64,000 nt of DNA from Kiritimatiellia bacterium (GTDB taxonomy: Bacteria; Verrucomicrobiota; Kiritimatiellia; CAIVKH01), in the NCBI GenBank assembly GCA_023953695.1, contig JAMLJG010000001.1, positions 62,001-126,000 of the forward strand, given 5' to 3'. This document shows, one piece after another, positions 4,264 to 24,478 of the stretch. Under the pieces are notes generated by a model. That model did no database searches. It had not been told where the DNA came from and was given only the letters and a program-made list of their open reading frames with translations. The first letter of the stretch is position 1. Each line of letters opens with the position of its first letter. A program made the position numbers and the translations under genes.

Positions 4264-5339
4264 CGTTCGGCGCAACTGATGCAGGGGTCAATGGTCAGGA
4301 CGATCACGGGCACATCGGCGAGTTGGCAGCCTTGCAGCATTTTCAACAGCGGTGGGATGTTCGCAAACGTGGGCGTGCGGACGCGGAAGCGATCGAGGAA
4401 TTTGGTGCCGTTTCCTTTGACGTAATAGATGACTTCACCGCGCGGCTGTTCGAGGCGGGCGAAGAACTCGCCTTTCGGCGCGCCGGTGATTTTCATATCC
4501 ACCGGTCCCGGTGGCACGTTGGGAAGCACGTGGCGCAGGATGTCGAAGGATTGATAAATCTCGCGAATTCGGACCATCGTGCGGCCCCAGCAGTCGCCGC
4601 TTTCTTCGACGATGGGCTCCACGGCGATTTTGTCATAGGCCGCATAGCCATCGAGGCGGGAATCCTGTGCGACGCCGCTGGCGCGGAGCATGGGGCCGAC
4701 TGCGCCGAGGTCGTAGGCGTCGTTCCTGGAGAGCAGGCCGACGCCGCAGAGGCGTTGGCGCACGGAGAAGTCGTCGCGGAACACGTTGGTGATGGCGCGC
4801 AGTTCGTCTTCGACTGCGTTGAGCTGGGCGGGGATGCGTGCGAGCAGGTCGTCCGGAACATCGCGGCGGCAACCGCCGACTTTCGCCGCGCCGAAAATGA
4901 CGCGGCCGCCCGAGGTTTCTTCGATCACGTCGAGGATCCCCTCGCGCAGTCGCCAGCAGGCCATGAAAAGGTTTTCAAAGCCAAATGCATCGGCCAGTAG
5001 GCCCAGCCACATCATGTGGCTATGGATGCGCGAGAGTTCGCTCCACATCGTGCGCAGCCATTTGGCGCGCTCGGGGATTTCGAGGCCCATGACGGTTTCG
5101 ACGGCTTGGCAATAGCCCATGCCGTGGATGTAGCTGCAAATCCCGCAGATGCGTTCGGCGATGAAGGTGAACTCGGTGAAGTCCTTTTTCTCGACGAGTT
5201 TTTCCAAGCCGCGATGGATGAAGCCGAACGAGGGGATGGCCTCGACGACATGTTCGTCTTCAATCACCAAATCGAGGTGAATCGGCTCGGGCAGGACGGG
5301 GTGCTGGGGCCCGAAGGGGATGACCGTTCTATTCGCCAT
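4260..5339 (-). CDS. echE: Ech-type membrane-bound [NiFe]-hydrogenase large subunit (NuoD-like)
   Basis: This is the catalytic subunit of a group 4 energy-conserving hydrogenase, which reduces protons with ferredoxin electrons while the membrane arm moves ions. Both nickel-binding pairs are intact: RICGIC (Cys65, Cys68) and the C-terminal DPCISC (Cys353, Cys356). This separates it from NuoD of respiratory complex I, which has lost them. The protein ends three residues after the last Cys, with no obvious long maturation peptide, as in several Ech enzymes. Length is 359 residues. It is preceded by a 67-bp gap that holds a double palindrome, the only sizeable gap within the ech genes. Confidence 0.94.
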   Translation of the reverse strand: MANRTVIPFGPQHPVLPEPIHLDLVIEDEHVVEAIPSFGFIHRGLEKLVEKKDFTEFTFIAERICGICSYIHGMGYCQAVETVMGLEIPERAKWLRTMWSELSRIHSHMMWLGLLADAFGFENLFMACWRLREGILDVIEETSGGRVIFGAAKVGGCRRDVPDDLLARIPAQLNAVEDELRAITNVFRDDFSVRQRLCGVGLLSRNDAYDLGAVGPMLRASGVAQDSRLDGYAAYDKIAVEPIVEESGDCWGRTMVRIREIYQSFDILRHVLPNVPPGPVDMKITGAPKGEFFARLEQPRGEVIYYVKGNGTKFLDRFRVRTPTFANIPPLLKMLQGCQLADVPVIVLTIDPCISCAER

Positions 5340-5356
5340 TTCGCTCCTGTCAACAC

Positions 5357-5403
5357 TTCCAACGACTGGAACTTTGCATGTGCTTGGCTTCCAAGGATTG
5401 GAA
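5357..5403. repeat. Double palindrome TTCCAA-N3-TTGGAA, two copies 32 bp apart
   Basis: The first copy, 5357-5371, reads TTCCAACGACTGGAA (one mismatch in the right half). The second, 5389-5403, reads TTCCAAGGATTGGAA and is perfect. The two start exactly 32 bp apart, about three DNA helical turns. The pair fills the gap between echE and echD, starting 3 bases beyond the echD stop. The same two-copy arrangement with the same 32-bp period is found at 49577-49623. It could act as DNA (dimer binding sites) or as two small RNA hairpins; I cannot tell which. Confidence 0.75.
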
Positions 5404-5406
5404 AAA

Positions 5407-5814
5407 TTATGTCGGCTCCTTTTGGGGTTGCGGTTTGTTGGGTTTGGGGGCGGGCGCCGCGCACACCGGCGGGACGGCCATGGGCGCGGGGATCGCGGTT
5501 CGGAAAAAGTGGCCTTGATAGTCCACGTTCATGCCGGTGAAGGTGATGCCGTAGAGGTCGTGGATTTCGTTTTCGTAGGCGAAGGAGCCTCCGTAGATGG
5601 AGCTGATGCTGGGGAGCGCAACGCGGCTGTCGGGGATGCAGATGCGGAGGTGTTCGATGGTGTGAGGGCGCGAGAAGCTGTAGAGGAGTTCAAAGTGCTG
5701 CAGGCGCGAGCAGCAGATTTGGACAAGGCGCGAGCCGGCGGCGCGCTGGGCGTTCGCGGCTTCGAGGAGGCGCTCGGGCGCGATTTCGCTGTAGGTTTGC
5801 GCGGGCGCGTTCAT
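5407..5814 (-). CDS. echD: Ech hydrogenase subunit D (NuoC-like)
   Basis: This 135-residue protein corresponds to the NuoC/30-kDa subunit that scaffolds the hydrophilic arm. The family signature is visible around residues 75-100, with the segment YENEIHDLYGI followed by G-M and an F-R motif, as in the complex I 30-kDa domain. The C-terminal 25 residues are Pro/Ala/Lys-rich, similar in style to the EchF tail. The ATG at 5814 overlaps the echC stop by 4 bp. Function follows from family membership and from its fixed place in the echABCDEF order. Confidence 0.87.
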   Translation of the reverse strand: MNAPAQTYSEIAPERLLEAANAQRAAGSRLVQICCSRLQHFELLYSFSRPHTIEHLRICIPDSRVALPSISSIYGGSFAYENEIHDLYGITFTGMNVDYQGHFFRTAIPAPMAVPPVCAAPAPKPNKPQPQKEPT

Positions 5815-6287
5815 GGGGTGGGAACCTCGCTCGTGGGGGTGGGCGCGATGGCGCGGCGTCGCGTTTTCTTTTCTTTTCGTTTGCGCTCGAGAAGGTCCAG
5901 CGCCTGGACGACGCCATCCATGATGGACTCGGGGCGCGCGGCGCAGCCGGGGACATAGATGTCCACGGGGATGGTGGAGTCCACGCCGCCTTTGGTGTTG
6001 TAGCAATCGCGGAAAATGCCGCCGGATGATGCGCAGATGCCGACTGCGACGACGACTTTGGGATCGGGCATTTGTTCGTAGATGGTGCGGACGACGGGCT
6101 GGCTCTGTTCGTTGATGTAGCCGGTGATGAGGAGGATATCGGCGTGTTTCGGGTTGCCGGTGTTGATGATGCCGAGTCGTTCGACGTCGTAGCGGGGTGT
6201 GAGGCAGGCGAGGACCTCGATGTCGCATCCGTTGCAGCTTGCGCCGTCGTAGTGGATGATCCAGGGCGACTTGCGGAAGAGGTTCAT
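5811..6287 (-). CDS. echC: Ech hydrogenase small subunit C (NuoB-like)
   Basis: This 158-residue [4Fe-4S] subunit links EchF to the catalytic EchE. The four cluster ligands are Cys18 and Cys21 (SCNGCDIE), Cys85 (VGICASSGG) and Cys115 (YVPGCAARPE), the arrangement seen in NuoB and EchC. The end is a basic Arg/Lys-rich stretch followed by a short Pro/Thr tail. The ATG at 6287 overlaps the echB stop by 4 bp. Confidence 0.93.
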   Translation of the reverse strand: MNLFRKSPWIIHYDGASCNGCDIEVLACLTPRYDVERLGIINTGNPKHADILLITGYINEQSQPVVRTIYEQMPDPKVVVAVGICASSGGIFRDCYNTKGGVDSTIPVDIYVPGCAARPESIMDGVVQALDLLERKRKEKKTRRRAIAPTPTSEVPTP

Positions 6288-7159
6288 GGCGTGCCTCCGC
6301 GTTGGAGGTAGTGGAGGAGGATCAAATTGCCTGCGCCCACGATTGCGGTGAATGCCCAGGAGGTGCGGAGAACCCACTGCCAGTAGAGACGGGCATGGGT
6401 GTTGTCGGCGAGGATTTCGAGGAAATAGACGGCGATCAAGGCGGCGAGGGCGAGAAGCGGCCAGGGGGCGAAGAAGAGGTAGAGGAATCCGAGCAGGAGG
6501 ATGGTTTCATAGCCGTGGGCGAGCTCGATGATGGCGAGGTAGGGGCCGGCGAACTCCGTTGTGATGCCTTTGACGATTTCTTGATGCGCGTGGTGCGAGG
6601 TGGAGAGGTCGAAGGGCGATTTGCGGAGCTTGATCGTGAGAATGTAGATCATGCCGAGGAAGATGCCGGGGAGGGTTGCGATGAGCGGGGTGGGTTGCGC
6701 GTGGATGGTGGTCACCTGAAAGGAACCCGTCGCCACATAGAAGCCCATGGCGCACATGATCAGCATGGGCTCGCTCGCCATGATTTGGATCAGCTCGCGC
6801 TCGGCGCCGATGTGGCTGTAGGGCGAACCGGCGGCGAATGCGCCGAGGACAAAGAAGACGCTCGCGAGGGCGAGGGCGAAAATGACGATGAGAAGATCGC
6901 CGCCGATGAAAAACTCGATGCCGGCGAGGATTGTGAAGAGGAGATAGCCGAGGAGGAAAAAGTGGCCCGAACGGTTGACGGCGATTCGCTCTTTCTGGAA
7001 GAGCTTCAGGAGGTCATAGATCGGCTGAAGAAGGGGCGGGCCGATTCGGCTCTGCATGCGCGCGCTGATGATTCGGTCGAGCCCCGCCAGCAGTCCCGCG
7101 AGGATCGGGGACAAGAGGACGAAGAGAATCGCTGCGAGGATGCGGGTCCAGGCGCTCAT
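6284..7159 (-). CDS. echB: Ech hydrogenase membrane subunit B (NuoH-like)
   Basis: This 291-residue integral membrane protein anchors the hydrophilic arm and lies at the junction with the ion-translocating subunit. About eight hydrophobic segments are visible. The NuoH signature near residues 34-55 (SRIGPPLLQPIYDLLKLF) and the acidic loop GAERELIQ (about 118) fit the quinone-binding-pocket region of complex I relatives. The gene overlaps echA by 4 bp upstream and echC by 4 bp downstream. Confidence 0.93.
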   Translation of the reverse strand: MSAWTRILAAILFVLLSPILAGLLAGLDRIISARMQSRIGPPLLQPIYDLLKLFQKERIAVNRSGHFFLLGYLLFTILAGIEFFIGGDLLIVIFALALASVFFVLGAFAAGSPYSHIGAERELIQIMASEPMLIMCAMGFYVATGSFQVTTIHAQPTPLIATLPGIFLGMIYILTIKLRKSPFDLSTSHHAHQEIVKGITTEFAGPYLAIIELAHGYETILLLGFLYLFFAPWPLLALAALIAVYFLEILADNTHARLYWQWVLRTSWAFTAIVGAGNLILLHYLQRGGTP

Positions 7160-18782: not shown

Positions 18783-20003
18783 ATGTCGTTTTCCAAACAA
18801 CAGGCGCGGTTGATGCCCGCCACATTGTGGCTAGTTGTGCGCGAGAGCGTGCGCTCGTTTTCGCGCAATCGAGATCTCGAGTCCGCTGCGACGCTCGCCT
18901 TTTACGGCTTCCTCTCGCTCATGCCGCTTCTGCTCTTGCTGGTCTTTGCGCTGAGCTGGGTGGTGAGTGCGTCCGACACGGTTCTTGCTGCGCTGAGCGA
19001 ACAGCTTGCCGATCTTTTCCCCGCGTTTGACGAAGCGCTTTTGAGAGAGATTGCGACACTAGCGCGGCAGCGCGTGTGGGGCGCGGTCAGCTTGCTCTTT
19101 CTGCTGTGGTCCATGACGCCGTTTGCGGGCGCGGCGCGCCACGCGGTGATTTCCATTTTCAAGGGACAGCAACGCCGCACATTTCTGACAGGTAAGGCAA
19201 TGGACCTCATCGTCGTGCTGGCGGTCCTTCTTCTCTTTCTCCTGCTGACGATCAGTCGGGTGCTCCTCGTCGCGTTGCCGTTGGACCTGACCCAGGGTGC
19301 GCGCAGCGTTCAAGCGCTGTTTTCCTGGGCGCTATCGGCTGTTGTGATCGGAATATTCTATCGCGCGTTCGCCTCGGTTCCGCTGCGGGCCCGTGAAGTG
19401 GCGGTTGGCGCGGTGGGTGCGGCGCTGTTGCTTTCTTTGATTCGACCGCTTTTCGGGCTTCTGCTGCAATTCAATCCAAACTTTGGCTATGCCTTTGGCT
19501 CGGTGAAGGCGATCTTTTTGCTGCTTGTGTGGGTCTATTACACCTTTGCGGTGCTGCTGTTCGGCGCCGAGTTGGCAGCCAACACGCGGCGTCGCGAAGC
19601 GCTTCTGCTGCGCGGCTTTCTCCGAGATGATCGGCATGTGCGCCGCGCGCCGCGCCGCCTGCTCGAGCCGTTTCTCCGGCGGTTTGAAGATGGGGATGTG
19701 CTGTTTCGCGAGGGGGATGCGGGGTGCGAGATGTTCTTCATCCGTGCGGGCTCGGTGCGCTTGACGCGCGGTGAGGTGGAACTGCGGCGCCTTGGGCCGG
19801 GCGACTATTTCGGCGAGATGTCGCTACTGCTCGGTGCGCCGCGTTCGGCGACGGCGACCATTGCAGAGCCGGACACGGAATTGGTCGCAATTGCCGAGCG
19901 AAACATGGACCTCATTCTCGGCGAAAATCCCGAAGTCGTGCAGCGCCTCTTGCGCGACATGGCGGCGCGACTCCGCGATATGAATGAACGCATCACCGCG
20001 TGA
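18783..20003 (+). CDS. YihY/BrkB-family membrane protein fused to a cyclic-nucleotide-binding domain
   Basis: The first 280 residues form a YihY/BrkB (formerly 'ribonuclease BN') membrane domain with about six hydrophobic segments, including AATLAFYGFLSLMPLLLLLV and FGYAFGSVKAIFLLLVWVYY. The remainder, about residues 295-400, is a cNMP-binding beta-roll. It begins FEDGDVLFREGDAG and holds a phosphate-binding cassette of GEMSLLLGAPRSATATI, so both the Glu that contacts ribose and the Arg that contacts phosphate are present. This implies allosteric control by cAMP or cGMP, or a degenerate ligand. Ordinary YihY proteins end near residue 290-300, so this is an unusual fusion. A weak AAGGCG precedes the ATG. 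Confidence 0.88.
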   Translation: MSFSKQQARLMPATLWLVVRESVRSFSRNRDLESAATLAFYGFLSLMPLLLLLVFALSWVVSASDTVLAALSEQLADLFPAFDEALLREIATLARQRVWGAVSLLFLLWSMTPFAGAARHAVISIFKGQQRRTFLTGKAMDLIVVLAVLLLFLLLTISRVLLVALPLDLTQGARSVQALFSWALSAVVIGIFYRAFASVPLRAREVAVGAVGAALLLSLIRPLFGLLLQFNPNFGYAFGSVKAIFLLLVWVYYTFAVLLFGAELAANTRRREALLLRGFLRDDRHVRRAPRRLLEPFLRRFEDGDVLFREGDAGCEMFFIRAGSVRLTRGEVELRRLGPGDYFGEMSLLLGAPRSATATIAEPDTELVAIAERNMDLILGENPEVVQRLLRDMAARLRDMNERITA

Positions 20004-20018
20004 AGCGGGCGCATTCGG

Positions 20019-20651
20019 CTACTCCGCTTTTACCTTGCTGAGCATGCCATCGAAGGTGAGGGGTTCATCGCGCCCGATGTACTCCCATCCCGTTAGGAAG
20101 CCGTGCTGTGCTCCCAGATCGCGCGCCTTTCGGAACGTCTCGAACGAGTCGTCTCGGACCAGATACACCATGTAGTGCAAATTCGTGCTGAATGTCTTGA
20201 GGAGTTGATCGAAGTCGCCGTTGGGTTCTTCCTCGTTTGGCGGCGCGATTCCGGGGACGCCGGGGCGCGGGATCAACGCCGTGACGCCGAGCATGATGAA
20301 GCTGTTGTCCAGCCGATAGTAGGTGTTGCCAATATCCTCGGAAAGCGCATCGGCCAGCGTGTTGGTTTGGCCGCTCAGGGCGCGTCTGCGAGCCGCCTCC
20401 TGTGCCGAGCGCAACGCCTGCATGATCTCGACGCGATCAATGAAGTAGAGCTGGTTATTGCGGCACTCGACATAGACGGGCATGTTGGTGGTCTCAATCG
20501 CGAGCGGGGTTGGCCGCACTTTGGGCGTGCGCAACGCAATATCAATCACGATGACCATCACCATGAAGAGGGCGACGATCGAAACCGTGATGATGTCGCA
20601 GAACGATGTGACATTGAGCTCGGGCTCCTTTTTTTGCGGGCGCTTTGCCAT
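20019..20651 (-). CDS. ExbD/MotB-like channel subunit, second paralogue
   Basis: This 210-residue protein has one N-terminal transmembrane segment (about residues 13-40, NVTSFCDIITVSIVALF onward) with the membrane-buried Asp at the ExbD/TolR/MotB position, then a periplasmic domain. That domain has a PVYVEC strand and ends with a YMVYLVRDDSFETFRKA segment. The neighbouring gene shows the same layout (PVYIDC and YVVLLARPGSFAVYRHL), so the two are diverged duplicates. It is the last gene of a three-gene unit with an ExbB/MotA-like partner and would form part of a proton-driven channel. Confidence 0.8.
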   Translation of the reverse strand: MAKRPQKKEPELNVTSFCDIITVSIVALFMVMVIVIDIALRTPKVRPTPLAIETTNMPVYVECRNNQLYFIDRVEIMQALRSAQEAARRRALSGQTNTLADALSEDIGNTYYRLDNSFIMLGVTALIPRPGVPGIAPPNEEEPNGDFDQLLKTFSTNLHYMVYLVRDDSFETFRKARDLGAQHGFLTGWEYIGRDEPLTFDGMLSKVKAE

Positions 20652-20656
20652 GAAAA

Positions 20657-21160
20657 TCAGGTTTCCGGAAGGTGAATGTTGAGTTCCTTTATTTCCTTTT
20701 TCCAATCCAAGACGGCGTTGGAGGGGAGCACATCGGAACCCGCGACAATTCCGCGCCGAATCAATTCCTTGCGCAAGTGGCGATAAACCGCGAAGGACCC
20801 CGGGCGCGCGAGGAGGACGACATATTCTTTATCGGCATTTGCCTGAATGCGAGCCAGCAGCCGATCAATCGGATTGCCGTGCAGCAAGATGTCCTGCACC
20901 GATACAGAAATATCGCCTGGAAGCACCACGGCCCGATCGGGATGACAGTCAATGTACACGGGCTGCAATCCAGCGGGTGTCTTTCGCTGCATCGCTTTGA
21001 CCAGTTGGGAGAAGGAGAGGACTTTGTATTGCTGTGGGTTCTGAATGACCGGCATGATCATCACAACGAGAACAAGGCAGATCAGGCTCATCATAATAAC
21101 CAGCGAGTCGAGAAAGGGCGTCATCTCGATCTTGGCTTCGCGTTTTGGGGGGCGGCGCAT
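20657..21160 (-). CDS. ExbD/MotB-like channel subunit, first paralogue
   Basis: This 167-residue protein has the classic ExbD start, MTPFLDSLVIMMSL (about residues 13-26), with the proton-carrying Asp18 in the single transmembrane helix. A periplasmic domain contains PVYIDC and the YVVLLARPGSFAVYRHL segment shared with its downstream neighbour. The spacing to that neighbour is 5 bp, consistent with translational coupling. It lies 30 bp after the ExbB/MotA-like gene. Two different ExbD-like subunits could assemble a heteromeric plug with one channel protein. Confidence 0.85.
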   Translation of the reverse strand: MRRPPKREAKIEMTPFLDSLVIMMSLICLVLVVMIMPVIQNPQQYKVLSFSQLVKAMQRKTPAGLQPVYIDCHPDRAVVLPGDISVSVQDILLHGNPIDRLLARIQANADKEYVVLLARPGSFAVYRHLRKELIRRGIVAGSDVLPSNAVLDWKKEIKELNIHLPET

Positions 21161-21190
21161 GGTGATCGCTGGTGGATTGCTCTGCGCTTT

Positions 21191-22780
21191 CTATCGCGAC
21201 TCGGTCAGGACGATTTGTCGCGGTTTGGTGAGCCGCTTGACCAGGTCGTCGGTGGTTTGCAGGTGTGTGCGCAATTCCGACATGGCGAGGCGGAAATCCT
21301 TGCTTCCCGCGATGTCGCCGAGGGCAATTTCAACTGCCTTTGTCGCCTGCAGGAGAGATTCAATGCGCGTGCCGACATCCACGAGGCGCGTCATCTGATT
21401 GGCGAGACCGCGCGCGGCTTCGTCCGCGCCTCGAGCGGCGAGGGAAGAGGCATCGCGAAGGGCCTGCACCGATTGGCCAAGCTGTGAGGCGGCATCGCCG
21501 ACTTGTTTGCGGAGGTCGTCGGACACTTCCTTCCAACGCGTGGATTCGCGCTCGCTCGCCTGATCGAGCGTGCCGAGATAGGCCTGCACCGCGGCGGCCT
21601 GCTGTTCCACCGCGCGCGCTCCGCTGGTTTGAATGGCCTGCGCCTGCGTGTCGAGTTGTTTGGCCAGTGTCTCGGTTCCCTCGCGAAAACGCTCGGACAC
21701 ACTGAGCAGTTTCCCGGCGAGCTGCTCGCCCAATTCCCCCACGCGAATTTCGTAGCGAATCTGAAACTCGCTATATTTGTCGTTGATCAAATCGCTCGCC
21801 TTGGCAATGGCTGCGGCAAACACTTCGTCATATCGCTGCGGGCTCGGAATGCGGCGGAATCCCTCTTCGATGGAGGAGATCAGCTCCTTGAGGGGGGCCG
21901 CGAGCGCCTCGGCCATGTGGCCGATGTCTTCGCGCATTGCGAGAATGCTCTCGACGGGGAACTCTAGGCGCTTGGCAGACGGCATGCGCGAGGTGAGCCG
22001 CTCTTCGATGACGGCGTCGAGATCGCCGAGCAGCACTTCTTCGCGCCGCTCGCCGCTCATGCTGGGGAAGGCCGCGCCGCCAGCGGCCCAGAGGCCGACG
22101 AGCGTCGTGTAGAACGCCACGGCCAGACCTTGCGTAATGAGACCGACCTGAAACTTGATGTCTTCCGCAGAGACGTCCCCGCGCAAGAATTCGGCGAATC
22201 CGCCGATGCCATAGCTGACGCCATAGACGGTGCCGAGGAACCCGAGGAGGGGCATGGCCCAGATGTAGAGGCGATTGGCGCGGAACGAAGAGTCGGAGCC
22301 GAAGACGTCCATTTCCGCGTTTTCTCGCGTGTACTGAATGGTGCGATCGAAGTCACGCGTGTTGATCCACATCGCGAGAACGCGAATCACGCGCGTGTAG
22401 ACGATGCGCTTCTCCCAATTCGGGATGGAGGTGATCTCGTTATAGACGGCCATCAGATGCGCGTCGTCGTTCAGATCGAGGTCGTCGGGGAGGGGGAGAT
22501 CGCGTAGGGCCCTGGTCTCCGCCCGGATTTTCTGGCGCTTGAGGAAAATGGTCATCGTGGACATGAAGAACATGAAGAGCGTGGAAAACTGGAAGACCAC
22601 GCGCCCCCAATCCCACCCATTTCGCTCAATGAACAAATCGCGGATAAACGTGCCTTTGAGCGGCGCCAGAATAGCGAAGAATAGAATATCTAAAACGAGC
22701 GCACAGGCGACCGCGATCAGCGTGTTGACATGTGTATCCGGGCGCTCGCCGGTGGGAAAGGGAACTTGTTCCTGACTCAT
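21191..22780 (-). CDS. MotA/TolQ/ExbB-type proton-channel protein with long cytoplasmic tail
   Basis: This 529-residue protein has four transmembrane segments in a MotA-like layout: two near residues 20-42 and 62-82, a cytoplasmic loop, then two near 176-245. The channel motifs PLLGFLGTVYGVSYG and GLAVAFYTTLVGLWAAG are in the last two. Residues 250-529 form an extended helical, coiled-coil-rich tail (regular Ala/Leu heptads, much Gln/Glu/Arg), far longer than in ExbB or TolQ. ZorA of the Zorya defence system has a comparable plan, but no nuclease or ZorC/D/E-like gene is nearby. With the two ExbD-like genes it should make a proton-driven motor of unknown task. Confidence 0.85.
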   Translation of the reverse strand: MSQEQVPFPTGERPDTHVNTLIAVACALVLDILFFAILAPLKGTFIRDLFIERNGWDWGRVVFQFSTLFMFFMSTMTIFLKRQKIRAETRALRDLPLPDDLDLNDDAHLMAVYNEITSIPNWEKRIVYTRVIRVLAMWINTRDFDRTIQYTRENAEMDVFGSDSSFRANRLYIWAMPLLGFLGTVYGVSYGIGGFAEFLRGDVSAEDIKFQVGLITQGLAVAFYTTLVGLWAAGGAAFPSMSGERREEVLLGDLDAVIEERLTSRMPSAKRLEFPVESILAMREDIGHMAEALAAPLKELISSIEEGFRRIPSPQRYDEVFAAAIAKASDLINDKYSEFQIRYEIRVGELGEQLAGKLLSVSERFREGTETLAKQLDTQAQAIQTSGARAVEQQAAAVQAYLGTLDQASERESTRWKEVSDDLRKQVGDAASQLGQSVQALRDASSLAARGADEAARGLANQMTRLVDVGTRIESLLQATKAVEIALGDIAGSKDFRLAMSELRTHLQTTDDLVKRLTKPRQIVLTESR

Positions 22781-24019: not shown

Positions 24020-24478
24020 CTACCCGCGGCGGAAGAGGAAGCCGATAAAGCTGCCGACATAGCCCAAAAGGCCGATGGACAACAGGATGAAGGCGAGATG
24101 GTATTTGGCCGTTCGCGCATTGCGGCGGCGGATGAGATTGATAAACGACTGATCTGTCGTCTCGCTCCGCCACTGCGTGGACCAGCGCAAGCGGAGCGGG
24201 CCCGCGAGCGTCAACACGGCGGAAACCAGCACGAAGCTAAGTCCATAGACAATGCAGAGTTTCGAGAACCGACCCGATGCCGCGATATTCGGCCCCGAGA
24301 AACCCGTGATCGTCAGCACCACGGCCACCAAACTCAGCAAGAGCGAGGAGCGCTGTTGAAGCACATCGTATGCGTTCGTGATCCAGTGGGCCATTTTCTC
24401 ATAGTCGCCACTGCAAATCTCTTTGAGGTACTCCAGCTCTTCCGCTGGCGTCAGTTTTTTGTTTTTTGTTGTATTCAT
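24020..24478 (-). CDS. Small membrane protein of unknown function, two or three transmembrane helices
   Basis: This 152-residue protein has a charged N-terminal region (residues 1-45, Lys/Glu-rich) and hydrophobic stretches around 45-65, 73-95 and 128-148, with a basic loop between the last two (RWSTQWRSE, RRRNARTAKYH). I do not recognise a family. The ATG at 24478 is the first Met that gives a soluble N-terminus; its ribosome binding site is not obvious. It follows the nucleosidase-like gene by 64 bp on the same strand. Confidence 0.65.
   Translation of the reverse strand: MNTTKNKKLTPAEELEYLKEICSGDYEKMAHWITNAYDVLQQRSSLLLSLVAVVLTITGFSGPNIAASGRFSKLCIVYGLSFVLVSAVLTLAGPLRLRWSTQWRSETTDQSFINLIRRRNARTAKYHLAFILLSIGLLGYVGSFIGFLFRRG

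Follow-up and report, generated by a model that had tools for sequence, protein, structure and literature searches.

A three-gene unit on the minus strand at positions 20019–22780 of the analyzed DNA (hereafter the window, a 64,000-nucleotide stretch from a Kiritimatiellae MAG) represents a genuine, divergent, and uncharacterized motor family. Its genes, termed B, D1, and D2, lie in tandem in that order with operon-like spacing (30 nt between B and D1, 5 nt between D1 and D2), at the coordinates given in a preliminary description of this DNA. At the level of sequence, the family combines a core of the MotA/TolQ/ExbB-ExbD superfamily, whose proton-powered motors serve flagella and Ton/Tol transport, a near-universal layout of one B and two D genes, a recurrent pattern of membrane Asp residues, a helical B tail, and a tail-end motif common to B and an unlinked protein, T, that co-occurs with B. 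The two-D layout itself is known and not rare, but the signature at the end of the B tail recurs in T in almost all genomes with such a motor. We give about an even chance to the reading that the unit is a proton motor of the inner membrane, divergent in sequence and built on a B5:D1:D2 core, with a tail that works with T or with a partner common to B and T. All three genes are under purifying selection, with dN/dS values of 0.06–0.22 for B, D1, and D2 (one D1 pair had no computable dS).

B (21191–22780, minus strand) encodes a four-TM MotA/TolQ/ExbB-type subunit of 529 residues, with hydrophobic segments at about residues 21–39, 61–79, 171–196, and 212–237 and a cytoplasmic tail of ∼290 residues beyond the last of these. 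Orthologues in the nearest genomes exhibited 82, 77, and 73% identity. The Pfam MotA_ExbB score of window B was below the cut-off (16.6 versus 22.9 bits), and the family was matched by 23 of 23 B homologues (best E 1e-8). The B profile aligned with canonical ExbB/TolQ (95.5% probability, E 1e-8) such that the GxxGTV and TTxxGL segments were in register, and the channel-core motif residues were invariant in the B alignment. Judged by these profiles, the MotA/ExbB assignment of B, as made in the preliminary description, is real but divergent. Profile searches with all three proteins against solved structures returned coiled-coil and weak matches only, with TolQ at E 0.4.

In a channel-core tree, the family of window B was split (100/100, long branch) from E. 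coli ExbB and TolQ and, at the same split, from the six canonical ExbB/TolQ proteins of its own genome, five of which are ExbB. Window B lay outside both the ExbB clade and the TolQ clade, and therefore, within the sampled tree, the proteins did not fall inside the standard TolQ/TolR or ExbB/ExbD clades, a placement that the preliminary description had said would count against a distinct unit.

The B-D-D family was found across Verrucomicrobiota. In a profile search of one genome per species, in which absence accordingly means a score below threshold, B profiles matched in 95 of 387 phylum genomes, and D2 profiles located the tailed unit in the class, in about 24 of the 387. B was followed by two D-like genes in ∼52 of the 54 loci read, which comprise several sub-types; in one of the two exceptions the fetched stretch ended, and in the other a single D passed the filter. 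Three layouts recurred among the 54 loci: a tailed Kiritimatiellae type; a type in which B has a zinc-ribbon-like N terminus and a tail of ∼145–190 residues; and a near-tailless type located near GYF-domain genes, with a GAP1-domain gene in at least one locus. The sub-branch of the window is small (the window, L004, L005, and L035, with L036 more distant), and the same genome also carries the class-wide tailed unit on contig 23, at 34% identity. Near-tailless loci L157, L158, and L164–L168 form operons with GYF-domain proteins, one of them a trypsin fusion, and a ∼1040-residue protein. The L164 operon adds a GAP1-N2/GAP1-M protein; MotA, TolQ, and TolR are not mentioned in the publication on GAP1-N2 conflict systems (PMC7159879).

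D1 (20657–21160, minus strand; 167 residues) and D2 (20019–20651, minus strand; 210 residues) are ExbD-like subunits, each with one N-terminal TM helix and a periplasmic domain, the larger being that of D2. For D2, an ATG start at 20651 agrees with homologues better than a TTG at 20705. As the preliminary description had noted, both carry an Asp at the ExbD membrane position (Asp18 in D1, within MTPFLDSL; Asp19 in D2, within VTSFCDII) and have common periplasmic motifs, namely PVY[IV][DE]C (PVYIDC in D1, PVYVEC in D2) and R-P/D-SF-R (LLARPGSFAVYRHLR in D1, YLVRDDSFETFRKAR in D2). Comparison of the D1 and D2 profiles gave 98.7% probability and E 3e-16; by this measure, the two D proteins are homologues. 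Matches to established families were weaker. D2 scored below the cut-offs of both Pfam ExbD (18.2 versus 25.4) and NCBIfam ExbD (16.9 versus 216), D1 matched no relevant Pfam family, and D1/D2 profiles reached about 5% probability against canonical ExbD, a weak match, with 65% for window-type D1 alone.

A structural model of D1 was of modest confidence (pLDDT 62.6). Its best VIA matches included TolR (5by4; Z 6.3, 4.1 Å, 86 residues) and ExbD (8pek; Z 6.1), although RNase-H-like folds scored equally well, and it superposed on ExbD 8vgc at 2.4 Å across 70 of 75 residues. The order of strands and helices in this modest-confidence model is that of ExbD. By this model, D1 may have an ExbD/TolR-like periplasmic fold; the D2 model (pLDDT 44) was too poor for use. 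Tandem copies of the D1/D2 periplasmic domain occur in L101 (7304–10099), L103 (7929–9020), L104 (5802–7025), and L100 (6723–7547), where the D profile matched the periplasmic part only; the L101 and L103 proteins had no Pfam match. The D2 gene of L004 (12065–12706) has a frame shift near its 3′ end relative to orthologues, probably an assembly error.

Among the tailed loci, the membrane Asp is missing from D1 in 25 of 30 and retained in D2 in 29 of 30; in the zinc-ribbon type, it is missing from D1 in 11 of 12. Asp is present in both D proteins of window-type units and of L065, and the D2 of L051 has Asn at this position. As one D is usually without the Asp, D1 and D2 are not interchangeable, and with most D1 proteins unable to function as homodimers, the Asp pattern points to a D1:D2 heterodimer as the likeliest arrangement. 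A literature search on paralogous ExbD/TolR heterodimers returned nothing with the terms used. A rather unlikely alternative is that two motors are built on one ring type, B5-D1-D1 and B5-D2-D2, with homodimers addressing different periplasmic targets, as is possible for AglQ/AglS. Such an arrangement would be consistent with the divergence and size difference of the D1 and D2 periplasmic domains and with the Asp that window-type D1 carries itself, and homodimers and heterodimers are stated to be unresolved for AglRQS (PMC9389320). However, a D1 homodimer would be inactive in most loci, given the missing Asp, and the D1–D2 pair stays together in nearly all of them.

The preliminary description was mistaken in holding that known systems use one ExbD-type protein. 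AglRQS, the Myxococcus gliding and sporulation motor, has one MotA/TolQ-type gene and two MotB/TolR-type genes, with a conserved TM Asp in both products of the latter (PMC9389320), and an AglQ Asp mutant abolished proton conductance (PMC3858216). By published description, AglRQS thus resembles the window unit in having one MotA-type and two MotB/TolR-type subunits; it differs in its Glt/Nfs partner proteins, of which the window locus showed none, and in having the Asp in both D-type subunits, as opposed to the D1 without Asp in most relatives of the window unit. In Xanthomonas campestris, exbD1 and exbD2 follow exbB in tandem (PMC3551730), again two tandem D genes after a B-type gene; that unit is linked to tonB, and window B stands apart in its lineage, its four TM segments, and its long tail. 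Two D genes are also found closer at hand: of the six canonical ExbB/TolQ loci that the genome of the window contains, three (on contigs 4, 7, and 36) are ExbB-ExbD-ExbD. Each of these three (L130, L131, and L132) lies beside a gene for a TPR-resembling protein of ∼920–940 residues.

These canonical loci speak for a further alternative, in which the window unit is an ordinary ExbB-ExbD-ExbD energizer of outer-membrane transport that merely evolves fast and whose tail has no particular function. Common to TolQ/TolR, ExbB/ExbD, and the window unit are a TM core with GxxGTV and TT segments and the ExbD-type Asp. In contrast to the three TM segments of TolQ and ExbB, window B has four and a long tail with a conserved end, and the family is separated from the canonical loci by the tree split and long branch described above. 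No Tol or TonB gene, nor any TPR or receptor gene, is directly adjacent to the window unit, as the preliminary description had stated for Tol and TonB; the TolQ-TolR-TolA-TolB set of this genome is on contig 5. Together with the high conservation of the tail end in B and its presence in T, these differences make an ordinary energizer quite improbable.

Residues 317–488 of the B tail, a stretch of 172 residues, contain no proline, and the tail has a hydrophobic period of 3.62–3.64 that was as strong in 0 of 500 shuffles; from these two features, a long amphipathic helix is to be expected, consistent with the long tail of the preliminary description. That description had also drawn an analogy to ZorA, in which tail rods span residues 237–696 and 110–378 (PMC11890865). 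The analogy held for architecture, in that a MotA-type ring protein is extended by a long cytoplasmic tail of helical character, but not for sequence. ZorA models scored B at 15.7 bits against a cut-off of 190 and 11.6 against 100, and matched almost only its low-complexity coiled-coil tail. ZorAB also has a single ZorB, versus two D proteins in the window unit. Pfam found no OmpA or MotB-type domain in D1 or D2, nor did PADLOC match them, and a PADLOC scan of nine neighbors gave generic domain matches only, without zorC, zorD, or zorE. With scores far below cut-off, no Zorya effector genes, and no OmpA-type domain, membership in Zorya was rejected. A Zorya-like defense or signaling motor, in which a threat at the cell wall would set the ring in motion and the tail would switch on an effector in the cytoplasm, would fit the ZorA-like tail and the tailless B-D-D branch in GYF operons, at least one of which includes a GAP1-domain protein of predicted conflict systems. 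Tailed units, however, are often beside housekeeping genes, with no variable effector seen, and alongside the poor ZorA scores and generic PADLOC matches this makes the explanation quite improbable as well.

The last ∼44 residues of B are among its most conserved parts. They contain a C-terminal motif, F..AMSELRTHLQTTDDLVKRLTKPRQIVLTE, at about residues 486–529 (21191–21325, minus strand) that is also present in the unlinked protein T. When the fetched DNA was searched with a profile from B C termini alone, eight further proteins matched (E 3e-13 to 2e-8), and the matches listed included no reversed decoy. T proteins have one, four, or no TM helices followed by a helical tail and a B-type end, and the channel motif was found in 0 of 21. 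As the B-core profile had no match in T, it is only the tail, together with an NPLPxDLDLsD stretch in some T proteins, that suggests descent of T from a whole B. In a survey of 193 genomes of the class, the tail-end motif was found in 46 and not in the other 147; 38 of the 46 had at least two copies, and both B and T were read in 25 genomes. The genome of the window has a T at about 75145–75870 of G000:C2, and its third motif copy is the contig-23 unit. T is not adjacent to B, and their co-occurrence may be due in part to shared ancestry within a few families. On the strength of the motif and this co-occurrence, T is the best candidate for a constant partner of B. In the surroundings of T (loci L054, L055, L058, L059, and L188), the gene in divergent orientation often encodes a protein with the C terminus YRDADVGFR (a formylglycine-enzyme-like end), and a small gene ending in ...RYPLRVGIAKG is sometimes convergent with T.

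In the proton-motor reading, a ring of five B subunits would enclose a D1:D2 heterodimer. Protons passing the D Asp residues would drive a turn or twist of B against the D subunits, whose periplasmic domains would grip the cell wall or an envelope partner. The long helical B tails would bundle into a cytoplasmic rod, and the conserved C-terminal motif would bind a cytoplasmic partner, or B would co-assemble with the channel-less T. A non-conducting scaffold that has lost motor activity, as the loss of the D1 Asp in most relatives and the Asn in the D2 of L051 might suggest, is hardly credible in view of the D2 Asp retained in nearly all tailed loci, the two Asp residues of window-type units, and the invariant channel core. 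Only tentatively do we put forward a more specific version of the motor, in which the D1:D2 heterodimer is obligate, with one protonatable Asp in most relatives, and the tail enters a joint assembly with T as a dedicated unlinked paralogue, window-type units being the two-Asp form. A heterodimer motor with such a tail assembly would thus transmit motion or torque into the cytoplasm, and not only to the outer membrane. If the proton-motor reading is right, a separate, Verrucomicrobiota-wide branch is added to the 5:2 proton motors. Close relatives carry the Asp on either one or two axle subunits, so that the family would also offer a natural experiment on how many are required. The tail-end motif present in both B and T would provide a concrete, testable candidate for the cytoplasmic partner, a question that the tailed motors GldLM and ZorAB pose as well.

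For the constant fourth partner that the preliminary description had asked about, the candidate is the unlinked T and not an adjacent gene. A constant neighbor of the window-type unit was rejected, as xdhC upstream and BrkB downstream are shared by the window and L004 alone, with murA following the unit in L005 and L035. In several families, the neighbors of the class-wide unit include fabZ, lpxA, and a secretin gene, identified by their sequence motifs, an arrangement that weakly suggests envelope or secretion work. In several class-wide units (L042 at 4501–6558, L047, L049, L050, and L109–L111), a gene for an NHL-repeat protein of ∼650–700 residues is located between B and D1; by position only, this protein recalls the TolB beta-propeller. 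In the window, the gene at 18783–20003, convergent with D2, encodes a BrkB/YihY-type membrane protein with a C-terminal cNMP-binding domain. The product encoded at 24020–25346 matches the PADLOC nucleosidase-superfamily effector model and is followed by an ORF with hydrophobic segments, the two genes possibly being a small signaling or defense pair.
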